This document shows positions 6,545 through 9,241 of a DNA stretch of 21,645 nt, in pieces. The notes beneath the pieces were generated by a model. It was not told the origin of the DNA. It made no database searches and saw only the letters and a program-made list of their open reading frames with translations. This DNA comes from a virus: positions 1 to 21,645 of the IMG/VR virus record IMGVR_UViG_3300033388_003183, one strand, 5' to 3'. The translations under genes were made by a program, and so were the position numbers. Numbering within the stretch: position 1 is the stretch's first letter; each line of letters starts with the position of its first letter.

Positions 6545-6877
6545 TCATCGGGCCATTCGGGCGCATCGCTCACCCGCCAAACTTGAGCAGCCCTGACGCC
6601 AATCAGCCATAAAAACATCGACGTTGTTCTCGCGCCGATACGCATAGCCAGACTCAAGGCAAGCCGCCCTCTCGGTTACAAAGCACTCAGCCCTTGCCTC
6701 AGCTTTCAGGCAGGCCAAAGAGGCGCAGGGAGCATCTGAGGCCGTCGTCGAGCATGCGGTGAGAAGCGCGGCTGAAAAAAACGTAAATATATATTTTGGG
6801 GTGTACTGACACCCAAATATATTTATATATTTATATATAGAAAAACTCTGAAAACTTTGTTCTTTAAAATCAAGCAC
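6545..6877 (-). CDS. putative lipoprotein, 110 aa (start uncertain)
   Basis: A lipoprotein signal is visible: Lys, a hydrophobic core (Y-I-F-T-F-F-S-A-A-L-L) and the lipobox L-T-A-C at about residues 39-42, then S-T-T-A-S-D-A. The mature part is short with many cysteines (about seven), probably disulphide-bonded in the periplasm. The only in-frame start is GTG 6877, with GGAAAG nine bases upstream. That puts 30 odd residues before the signal, encoded in an extremely AT-rich segment that also holds a hairpin and part of a 38-bp repeat. The start is therefore doubtful: a rare start codon is possible, or the AT-rich DNA may have a second job as origin or promoter. Confidence 0.6.
   Translation of the reverse strand: MLDFKEQSFQSFSIYKYINIFGCQYTPKYIFTFFSAALLTACSTTASDAPCASLACLKAEARAECFVTERAACLESGYAYRRENNVDVFMADWRQGCSSLAGERCARMAR
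6775..6860. other. AT-rich island with hairpin (candidate DNA-unwinding element or promoter)
   Basis: This stretch is dominated by runs such as AAATATATATTTT and AAATATATTTATATATTTAT in a genome that is otherwise G+C-rich. It contains an inverted repeat centred on ACTG (6805-6808): GGGTGT/ACACCC arms flanked by A/T arms, about 6788-6823 in total. It lies next to the two 38-bp repeats and downstream of the helicase gene, and overlaps the N-terminal codons of the putative lipoprotein. A replication origin or a strong minus-strand promoter would both fit. Confidence 0.5.
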
Positions 6878-6899
6878 TTAAAAATTCTTTCCGACAACT
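6862..6899. repeat. 38-bp imperfect direct repeat, copy 1
   Basis: It matches the copy at 6918-6955 at 33 of 38 positions without gaps. Shared blocks are CTTTAAAATCAA, ACTTA and TCTTTCCGACAACT. Shorter AACTTTG words recur beside each copy (6853-6859, 6906-6912, 6975-6981). The spacing is 56 bp, about five helical turns. Confidence 0.85.
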
Positions 6900-6917
6900 A
6901 CTTTGAACTTTGCACAC

Positions 6918-6955
6918 CTTTAAAATCAATGACTTAGCAAATCTTTCCGACAACT
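6918..6955. repeat. 38-bp imperfect direct repeat, copy 2
   Basis: Second copy of the unit at 6862-6899, differing at five internal positions. It lies in the 118-bp intergenic space between the helicase stop and the lipoprotein start. The repeats could be iterons bound by an initiator, operator sites or tandem promoters. Confidence 0.85.
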
Positions 6956-6995
6956 CCGACCGAACTCTGACATAACTTTGCAATGCCATTCTGAT

Positions 6996-8477
6996 CTAAG
7001 CCTCTTCGTTCTTATTACTATCAGCGATAAAGAGCTGCCGGCTAAGGCCGCCCCGCTTCGATGACATGTCGACGACTTCGAGCTTACCTTGGTCAATTAA
7101 GTTGTGCATAGCCTCTTCATAAACCCGCAGCCGTTTGTTGAACGCGGTGCCCTTTTTGACCTTCTTGAAGAGCGTGATCTCTCTCGGCGCGAATGGACCG
7201 CCGCCAGTTTTGGCCGTCGTCAATGGCCGGCCATCCTTCTCGAACACCTTCACGGCGTTCAAGAATTCCTGCTCGTAACTTGACATAACCATCGCGTCGC
7301 TGTCGACGTCAGGCTTCTCAAAGCGGCGAAGTTGACCATTCTGCAGCTCGACGTTGATCTGCTCGATGGGCATCTCGCCCCGCATCTCGAAGTGAATCTC
7401 AGCGTGCTGATCGACCGGGTTCTCTTTGAACATGACCATACCGGCCGAGTACCAGCCCCGCAGAGCAGACGCCCCGCGCAGGCTATTGAATGGGTCTTTT
7501 CGCAGGTCTGCGACCTTGCCCTTGTTGCTATGGTGCAGCAAGACAATGGTCAGATCGTCGCCGAAGACCTCACGAAAGCGCCCGAGCCGGTTGCGCAGAA
7601 AGAACTGCATGTCGGCGTTGTCGTTCTCGTTGTCTTCTGCGAAGACCGAGGCGAGCGAGTCGACCGCCAGAACCGCCGGTATCTCGCCGTCAAGCCGTTT
7701 GAGCAGCTCGTCGATCAGATACTCGACGCCGTGCTCATCGAACGCCAGCGTCTTGCGCCGCTGCGTCTCGTACCAGGGCATCTCGGCCTGAATCCAGACG
7801 ACCGGCTTGCCCTCGCTCTCGACCTCGAAGTCGGTGAGAAAGTCTTCGCCCCAGGCGATCGAGTAGATCAGCTCGGCTTGCAAGAAGCTCTTCATCGACT
7901 TCGGCGGCCCGGCGAGCACGACGTTGTCGCCCTGCCTGAAGAGGCCGTTGATCAGGTAAGGCGGCAGCTTGCGCGGGTCATCCATGAGCGCGAAGGCGTC
8001 ATAGATCGGCACCTCTTCGAGTTTGGCGGTCGTTCGCCCCGCCCCCTCGCTAGTGACCGGCACGATCTGGCCGTTGTTCTCGATGGTGTTGATCACCGAC
8101 ATGACGGTCTTCATGACCTCATCGGTCGACATCGGGGGGTGATTCTTGGCGTTCCAGTCGAAGGCCCGCTGCATGATCTCGCCGCGAGGTATCGACTCAT
8201 TCGCCCACTTGCCGACCAGGCTCTTCAGGTGATCGTTGCGACCGCCCTCGGTGACTGGCAGTTCTAAGATCGGCTTGCGCTCTTGAGGCTCTTCGTCGGG
8301 GTCGACGAGACTAGCGTCGAAGTTCAGCCCGCCGGCGACTGTATAGGCAGGCGGCCGTTCTAACTTGGCGGTGCGGCAGGTAGGGCAGGTCAAGCATGCC
8401 ATCGGGCACGCCCGGCAACGGGTTCTCTCGGGTATAGACGAAGCCGGTCTCGTGAACCGAGCCCTCAGCGACGACAT
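6996..8477 (-). CDS. PriCT-1 plus RepA-like hexameric helicase, C-terminal part of a prim-pol/helicase
   Basis: The conserved reading starts near residue 38 (K-L-E-R-P-P-A-Y-T-V-A-G-G). A primase C-terminal type 1 region follows at about 75-132 (E-G-G-R-N-D-H-L-K-S-L-V-G-K, H-P-P-M-S-T-D-E-V). Next is a RecA/RepA-like ATPase with Walker A G190-P-P-K-S-M-K196-S, Walker B A-V-L-A-V-D273-S and an L-L-H-H-S-N motif, and a winged-helix-like C-terminus. It should unwind DNA at the phage origin as the partner of the prim-pol encoded just upstream. In most relatives the two are one polypeptide; here this frame is +1 relative to the prim-pol and overlaps it by 167 bases. ATG 8477 has AAGG nearby, but its first 35 residues are prim-pol shadow, so the true 5' end is uncertain. 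Confidence 0.85.
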   Translation of the reverse strand: MSSLRARFTRPASSIPERTRCRACPMACLTCPTCRTAKLERPPAYTVAGGLNFDASLVDPDEEPQERKPILELPVTEGGRNDHLKSLVGKWANESIPRGEIMQRAFDWNAKNHPPMSTDEVMKTVMSVINTIENNGQIVPVTSEGAGRTTAKLEEVPIYDAFALMDDPRKLPPYLINGLFRQGDNVVLAGPPKSMKSFLQAELIYSIAWGEDFLTDFEVESEGKPVVWIQAEMPWYETQRRKTLAFDEHGVEYLIDELLKRLDGEIPAVLAVDSLASVFAEDNENDNADMQFFLRNRLGRFREVFGDDLTIVLLHHSNKGKVADLRKDPFNSLRGASALRGWYSAGMVMFKENPVDQHAEIHFEMRGEMPIEQINVELQNGQLRRFEKPDVDSDAMVMSSYEQEFLNAVKVFEKDGRPLTTAKTGGGPFAPREITLFKKVKKGTAFNKRLRVYEEAMHNLIDQGKLEVVDMSSKRGGLSRQLFIADSNKNEEA

Positions 8478-8862
8478 ACCCGCCTTGACCTCTCACGTCG
8501 AGATGGTCGCCCGTCCCGTTTCGAATGGTGAATTCTGGGGTCAACGCGTAGTAATAATGCGCCCCTTTGCTTGTTGTGACCTTTCGCGGTGTTCGCGTGA
8601 CGGTGCCCGATTCCATGAAGGCGACGCCCTCAGCGGTATCGGCATCGACGACGACGAACTGCACGCCCGTCGCGATCCCCCAGTTACAACCCGGCCAGCG
8701 TTTAACCCAGCCCTCGAACTCTTCATCAGAGGGCGGTCGGGTCTGGTATGTCTGCCAGGGTACGAGCGGCCGCTTGCCTTTTGCCTTGATCGGGAAAACA
8801 TGCAACCCTTCTTCGAAGAGGTCGTGCGCGCACTCGCTCGGGTCGAGTGTCTGTTCTGTCAT
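8311..8862 (-). CDS. archaeo-eukaryotic-type primase/polymerase (prim-pol) domain, 183 aa
   Basis: This is the N-terminal half of a phage/plasmid bifunctional prim-pol, which makes primers and extends DNA at the replication fork. Visible signatures are G-K-R-P-L-V-P-W near residue 29, the metal-binding V-V-V-D73-A-D75, S-K-G-A-H102-Y-Y-Y, and L-D122-V-R-G-Q-G-G-Y-V-V-A. Homology runs to about residue 165 (M-L-D-L-P-Y-L-P-H). The last 18 residues look like out-of-frame tail, while the helicase frame continues the expected protein. Start ATG 8862 has AGGG nine bases upstream and lies 9 bases after cro. A +1 ribosomal frameshift, a natural indel or a sequence error could each explain the break. 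Confidence 0.85.
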   Translation of the reverse strand: MTEQTLDPSECAHDLFEEGLHVFPIKAKGKRPLVPWQTYQTRPPSDEEFEGWVKRWPGCNWGIATGVQFVVVDADTAEGVAFMESGTVTRTPRKVTTSKGAHYYYALTPEFTIRNGTGDHLDVRGQGGYVVAEGSVHETGFVYTRENPLPGVPDGMLDLPYLPHRQVRTAACLYSRRRAELRR

Positions 8863-8871
8863 GGCAGCGCC

Positions 8872-9117
8872 CTACTTGCGTGCGCGTCTTTTTCGCGATG
8901 TTGCGATCACCTTGTTCTCGACGATGTCGATGTTGCCGTCTTTGTACAGCTCGACACGAATGCGCCGGCTCGGTGTAGACAGCCATCGGCTGACGGCCGC
9001 TTGAGTCACGCCTAACCTTTTCGCGACCGCGTCTTGTGTCAGGTCTCGCCCCTCGATGTAGTCGCCCAGTGTCAGAGTCGCGGCCGTGACTTCTGCCGCT
9101 TGTGTTGTCTTGCTCAT
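8872..9117 (-). CDS. cro: lambda Cro-like repressor, 81 aa
   Basis: It aligns by eye with lambda Cro: L-T-L-G-D-Y-I-E-G (Cro T-L-K-D-Y-A-M-R-F), then the HTH D-A-V-A-K-R-L-G-V-T-Q-A-A-V-S-R-W-L (Cro T-A-K-D-L-G-V-Y-Q-S-A-I-N-K-A-I), then the beta segment I-R-V-E-L-Y-K-D-G-N-I-D (Cro I-F-L-T-I-N-A-D-G-S-V-Y) and a basic tail R-K-R-R-A-R-K. The ATG at 9117 follows AAAGGC. The frame is open upstream to 9234, but that extension covers the promoter and is unlikely. It is the first gene of the minus-strand operon and should repress its own promoter and possibly the divergent one. No CI-type repressor is present in the window. Confidence 0.85.
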   Translation of the reverse strand: MSKTTQAAEVTAATLTLGDYIEGRDLTQDAVAKRLGVTQAAVSRWLSTPSRRIRVELYKDGNIDIVENKVIATSRKRRARK

Positions 9118-9140
9118 TATTTGCCTTTTCGAATGGTTTG

Positions 9141-9157
9141 CCGGTAGTATTGACCGG
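9141..9157. promoter_or_regulatory. 17-bp inverted repeat, candidate Cro operator
   Basis: CCGGTAGTATTGACCGG has five-base arms (CCGGT/ACCGG) around a seven-base centre. Its 17-bp length equals lambda operators, and it lies between the cro -10 box and the cro start. Assignment to Cro is inference. Confidence 0.4.
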
Positions 9158-9165
9158 AACGGCCG

Positions 9166-9194
9166 AATATACTGCGACGGCATGCCGAGGTCAA
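9166..9194 (-). promoter_or_regulatory. sigma70 promoter for cro and the minus-strand operon
   Basis: On the minus strand, TTGACC (9194-9189) and TATATT (9171-9166) are separated by 17 bases, a near-consensus promoter about 50 bases before the cro ATG. The spacer contains the perfect palindrome CGGCATGCCG (9178-9187), well placed for repressor binding. Confidence 0.8.
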
Positions 9195-9204
9195 GGGCGT
9201 AGTG

Positions 9205-9230
9205 GGATTGTGACGAAAATCGCACAACCC
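9205..9230. promoter_or_regulatory. inverted repeat between divergent promoters, candidate operator
   Basis: TTGTG (9208-9212) and CACAA (9223-9227) form arms, with an inner CGA/TCG pair and flanking GG(G)/CCC. The site sits between the two divergent promoters, where a shared regulator would bind. Confidence 0.35.
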
Positions 9231-9241
9231 ACACAAAAACC

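Follow-up and report, generated by a model that had tools for sequence, protein, structure and literature searches.

A candidate replication origin with private iterons and a paired IHF-like word directly 3' of a Prim-Pol/RepA-like helicase gene in an uncultivated virus

The IncQ plasmid RSF1010 combines iterons, an AT-rich stretch and a hairpin in one layout. In SaPI (Rep) and SCCmec (Cch2), the initiator-helicase gene is followed directly by short iterons, and inverted as well as direct repeats are present; specific binding is conferred in the case of Cch2 by the direct repeats and the C-terminal domain (PMC7581432). The origin of plasmid pRN1 is located 3' of orf904, whose operon comprises a repressor and the Prim-Pol/helicase, and it needs a stem-loop of about 100 nt (PMC4234260). 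The Prim-Pol of phage NrS-1 performs a sequence-specific de novo start at an 8-nt word, TTTGGTTA, which it recognises on a single-stranded template (PMC8718748).

We analysed the 21,645-bp IMG/VR record IMGVR_UViG_3300033388_003183, which is probably a genome fragment and is called the window here in its full length. A leftward gene set runs from an HTH regulator through a Prim-Pol and a PriCT_1-AAA_25 helicase to an AT-rich island (6775-6995), followed by small genes, RusA and an A1-type DNA transfer protein. A rightward set encodes an AAA_24 (Sak4-like) protein, DUF669, a PDDEXK-like protein and a DEAD/ResIII helicase. As stated in the initial annotation, the island lies directly 3' of the Prim-Pol/RepA-like (AAA_25) helicase gene, with the corrections that everything reads on the minus strand, that the replicase frames are split, and that the left half of the island overlaps an open frame, so the block is not purely non-coding (Table 1). 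The start region of this frame overlaps the hairpin described below, and it lacks an ATG and has only a distant GTG. Rfam and tRNA searches gave no match.

Table 1. Coordinates of features around the replicase and the adjoining AT-rich island (window positions)
Feature	Position	Strand	Basis
HTH (Cro/HTH_3-like) regulator, first gene of the leftward replication operon	8872..9234	-	Pfam, PHROGs; homologue in L005
Prim-Pol part of replicase	8311..8862	-	Pfam Prim-Pol 1.5e-26
PriCT_1 + AAA_25 (RSF1010 RepA-like) helicase part of replicase	6996..8477	-	Pfam; PDB 1g8y profile; model
Iteron word CAAAGTT	6974..6980	-	Word count, shuffles
Iteron word CAGAGTT	6963..6969	-	Word count, shuffles
Iteron word CGGAGTT	6952..6958	-	Word count, shuffles
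38-bp composite repeat, copy A	6918..6955	-	Repeat comparison
IHF-like word TAAGTCATTGATT, copy A (conserved stretch about 6908-6938)	6924..6936	-	Motif
Iteron word CAAAGTT	6906..6912	-	Word count, shuffles
38-bp composite repeat, copy B	6862..6899	-	Repeat comparison
IHF-like word TAAGTGCTTGATT, copy B (conserved stretch about 6852-6882)	6868..6880	-	Motif
Iteron word CAAAGTT	6853..6859	-	Word count, shuffles
Iteron word CAGAGTT	6844..6850	-	Word count, shuffles
AT-rich segment, least stable DNA of record; proposed unwinding element	6773..6874	.	G+C, stability
Hairpin, GGGTGT/ACACCC core (6799-6814), A/T arms	about 6784..6825	.	Fold
Open frame, lipoprotein-like signal KYIFTFFSAALLTAC	6545-6877	-	Sequence

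The replicase frames are broken by two deletions relative to the near-identical contig L002, one of 75 bp (at 7755) and one of 38 bp (at 8376). The latter shifts the frame and thereby splits the replicase in the window record; in L002 the replicase is one intact gene of 659 aa, and the Prim-Pol is likewise fused to the helicase in the more distant relative L005. The two deletions reflect either an assembly error or a defective genome. The Prim-Pol part has ORF904 of pRN1 as a relative, and the locus shares with that plasmid a Prim-Pol replication protein upstream of the candidate origin, whereas the pRN1 helicase belongs to SF3 and the window helicase to AAA_25. The helicase part is related to RepA of RSF1010 (profile E 1.2e-22 to 1g8y, and the fold agrees), and thus both systems have a RepA-type hexameric helicase (AAA_25 by Pfam). 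A RepC-like initiator was not recognised among the larger window proteins scanned, from a genome that is incomplete. An AlphaFold model of the replicase built from 30 sequences (pLDDT 76) predicts a winged-helix-like domain at the C-terminus of the helicase part: residues 566-650 follow the order helix-strand-helix-helix-strand-strand, at moderate confidence, in a portion for which Pfam gave no recognition.

The island was initially described as strikingly AT-rich, and it contains the lowest-G+C 200-bp and 100-bp windows of the record (0.29 over 6775-6974 and 0.22 over 6773-6872, versus 0.58 for the whole record). The least stable 60 bp of the record, 6814-6874, has a nearest-neighbour dG of -60.9 against a mean of -91.1 (sd 4.9), approximately six sd away. 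An easily melted AT-rich segment thus adjoins the repeats, as in origins of the SaPI/SCCmec type. The GGGTGT/ACACCC hairpin, also part of the initial annotation, is real (DNA fold z = -3.6), but an equally stable hairpin is present in 75% of the other 350-nt windows of the record, so it is weak evidence and was rejected as the main feature. At about 42 nt, and not unusual, it does not match the long stem-loop of pRN1. The window shares the combination of iterons, AT-rich stretch and hairpin with RSF1010.

Cumulative GC skew, proposed initially as a check, lent no support to an origin here: the curve has no turn at the island and peaks near 5.5 kb, although it is not informative on a fragment in which gene direction switches near 9.25 kb. 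No DnaA box (TTWTNCACA) was found in the window, which also counts against an origin. A DNA search of the island surroundings against named phages retrieved no match. The island is 100% identical in L002, and contig L009 ends before it, so these near-identical contigs cannot test conservation.

The three AACTTTG words reported initially are present (6853, 6906 and 6974) and belong to a larger array. They are instances, in reverse complement, of a more general word, CRRAGTT: the minus strand of the whole 21.6-kb record carries seven copies of it, and six of these are in the island. All six lie on the same strand within 137 bp after the replicase stop codon, an arrangement of short iterons directly downstream of the helicase gene that is shared with SaPI and SCCmec; the window differs from these in its fusion of Prim-Pol and helicase and in its pair of IHF-like sites. 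To our knowledge, the SaPI/SCCmec helicases are not of the RecA-fold AAA_25 type. When the island was shuffled 300 times with dinucleotides preserved, no degenerate heptamer of comparable kind exceeded four copies, so the array is not due to chance even when the post hoc choice of word is allowed for. The degeneracy of the iterons counts against an origin, in that no exact 7-mer exceeds three copies, an ordinary number. The 7-bp words are also shorter than the 20-bp iterons of RSF1010, and, in contrast to pRN1, it is the iterons that carry the signal in the window. In the window, CRRAGTT may serve either for binding to duplex DNA or for priming on a single strand.

The two 38-bp direct repeats of the initial annotation are 87% identical and indeed 56 bp apart, measured start to start, leaving a gap of only 18 bp. 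That annotation overlooked the composite nature of the repeat, the core of which occurs widely among viruses. Each repeat contains one TAAGT(CA or GC)TTGATT, so that two copies in the island fit the IHF consensus WATCAANNNNTTR exactly, and, as at an IHF site, an A/T tract lies one turn away. The general word, TAAGTBNTTGATT, is narrower than that consensus, with the four 'free' positions held to GTB-N. Between copies of one locus, conservation extends from about -2 to +28, a stretch of about 30 bp that includes the A/T tract one turn 3'. We infer from the motif that the ligand of the paired module would be a host bending protein, most likely IHF. A search for the 38-bp unit had been proposed initially as a check; at the DNA level, the matches to the repeats by themselves were for the most part weak and short.

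Further loci encoding the same replicase were reached by scanning with the Sak4-like protein. In the relative L005/G1 (37.6 kb, with patches of about 70-78% DNA identity), the island bears no recognisable similarity to that of the window; the same place, 3' of the replicase, is occupied by an ACTGCGC/GCGCAGTT array, with ACTGCGC present six times, and an A/T palindrome. This relative lacks the IHF-like word, which counts against the origin reading. In about ten loci besides that of the window, genes of the Prim-Pol/AAA_25 or Toprim/AAA_25 type are followed on the 3' side by unrelated private short-word arrays, which mostly rank as the top window of their own record or locus. Examples 3' of the replicase are seven copies of GCGCCGAA in L028, five of GCCGGACC in L097 (Toprim-AAA_25), five of CTCCCCA in L211 and eight of TGGGACA in MW202867. 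In Rhizobium phage 16-3, CGTGACA occurs 13 times together with CAAGTCATTGATA directly 3' of the Prim-Pol/AAA_25 gene p101 (L308:6616-6972, record positions 56250-56606), making this stretch a strong candidate, by its sequence, for the origin of a cultured temperate phage. In L129, the region 3' of an NrS-1-like polymerase gene (2059-2409) contains six copies of GGTTAACA, two of TAAGTCNTTGATT and seven of GTTAACA. The array word resembles the NrS-1 start word, and the polymerase gene adjoins both this array and two copies of the IHF-like word.

In a broader Prim-Pol set, 8 of 30 loci have at least four copies of an 8-mer in the 3' stretch (L028 and L005 being counted again here), and gene bodies never exceed three. 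Counts of 7 to 10 copies of 8-mers were seen in L228, L237 and L283. Directly 3' of the Prim-Pol/helicase gene, L237:5936-6285 contains ten GTGTCGCA and a DnaA box, and L283:4157-4506 contains eight ACCGTCGC and two TAAGTCATTGATT. Among the DnaA-like boxes of the stretches examined, those located in the 3' stretch number 1 of 1 in L028, 1 of 1 in L097, 2 of 2 in L306 and 2 of 3 in L211. We would like to note that no array was found 3' of the gene in L029, L040, L046 and L081, nor in 22 of the 30 loci of the broader set, which counts against the origin reading.

These arrays bear on what the initial annotation named as the main alternative, a promoter or operator in which the repeats would be regulator or IHF sites for leftward transcription from about 6877 downwards. 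IHF sites are common at promoters, and the island is an AT-rich gap between genes inside which a leftward gene starts. However, no sigma-70-like site was found in the island, though other promoter types are possible, and a promoter would not be expected to come with private words in arrays of 5 to 13 and DnaA boxes 3' of the replicase. The promoter reading is thus weakened, and we regard it as unlikely.

The IHF-like word itself was followed through viral contigs by scanning for two copies with 30-60 bases between them and with GTS imposed. The paired word (tandem TAAGTSNTTGATT) was found in at least 119 IMG/VR viral stretches (L104-L222), with 2 to 6 copies per locus, against a chance number of such pairs that we estimate at <1. 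Because this pattern imposed GTS, a separate test was run without that choice on 83 loci (853 kb) fetched for another gene. The IHF consensus occurs 45 times in these, versus 18.8 expected from a Markov model, and 18 of the 45 matches carry GTB in the free positions, versus 0.5 expected (about 36-fold), a count that is not one of independent events since the 83 loci are mutually related. The four bases that are unconstrained in the IHF rule are therefore not free here, as GTB is conserved. Plain IHF sites were rejected as the whole cause of the excess: without GTB, 27 matches stand against 18.8 expected in all. Near clusters, 327 copies were exact and 48 had one mismatch, with the G and T of the 'free' part conserved.

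The window, L028/L208, L097 and L211 each have, 3' of the replicase, a pair spaced 56-57 bp apart; the two-word arrangement of L028 has a spacing of 57 bp versus 56 in the window. Private words flank both copies at similar distances in the window and in three other replicase lineages. Across the Prim-Pol set, 37 copies of the word are found 3' of the gene as against two on its 5' side, which favours an origin; many paired-word loci, among the matches listed, adjoin non-replicase genes, which counts against one. The word is also present in Salmonella phage LPST10 (L223:2840-3330), where it lies in AT-rich intergenic DNA that separates an operon with an annotated repA helicase from the opposite operon. 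Near-copies, for example TAAGTAATTGATT on the other strand, were found in an intergenic region of about 850 bp in an Acinetobacter baumannii conjugative plasmid (L224:2470-2580).

A TerL-like gene lies within a few kb of 31 paired-word loci, among the matches listed, and iterons also serve in plasmid copy control, so the island might instead be a partition, copy-control or packaging (cos/pac) site and not the start point itself. Scans of the window proteins revealed no terminase, and the unstable AT-rich segment beside the array fits unwinding; we therefore consider such a site improbable. An open-access literature search for the word retrieved unrelated primers and one ICEclc primer, the latter located near an end of the ICEclc island and containing TAAGTCGTTGATT. 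This last match recalls an attP site, whose layout combines IHF sites with short arm repeats; under such a reading the iterons would be integrase arm sites and the two words IHF sites. No integrase was found among the window proteins scanned, from an incomplete genome, the replicase is the constant neighbour of the arrays, and DnaA boxes are foreign to attP, making this the most improbable of the readings considered.

The initial proposal of a candidate replication origin is thus supported by comparison, and we assign a probability of roughly 0.7 to the reading that the island is a phage replication origin directly 3' of the replicase gene. This reading rests on the array, repeats and instability in the window and on the same position being occupied by unrelated iterons elsewhere; on the DnaA boxes in L028, L097, L306 and L211 and the 56-57-bp word pairs; and on the winged-helix order of the C-terminal domain together with the precedents of pRN1, SaPI and SCCmec. 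In the best reading of its parts, the iterons are specific to the phage, the two IHF-like sites would bend the DNA and the AT-rich segment would serve as the unwinding element. At such an origin, the replicase would bind the iterons, most likely via its C-terminal winged-helix-like domain, or a partner initiator would do so. A host bending protein, most likely IHF, would occupy the two TAAGTBNTTGATT sites and shape the array, upon which the adjacent AT-rich segment would melt. The hexameric RepA-like helicase could then be loaded at the melted segment, and the fused Prim-Pol could make the first primers on the exposed strand.

As a class, such an origin is known, since in SaPI, SCCmec and pRN1, too, the origin is found on the 3' side of the replication gene. 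The shared paired module, in contrast, looks new, provisionally and within a limited open-access literature search. We tentatively raise the possibility, which we hold to be somewhat doubtful, that TAAGTBNTTGATT, taken together with its 3' A/T tract, is a module in its own right that has not been described before and is read by one host protein, be it a stricter mode of IHF or another factor, and that unrelated phages and some plasmids have it in pairs at their origins, combined with private iterons of their own.

The origins of most phages are unmapped. A searchable paired 13-bp word, together with the rule of searching 3' of the replicase for private iterons, would yield testable origin predictions for many uncultivated viruses, and likewise for the tractable Rhizobium phage 16-3. 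The finding also raises the question of what host protein could recognise, across viruses this diverse, a word more restricted than the IHF consensus.
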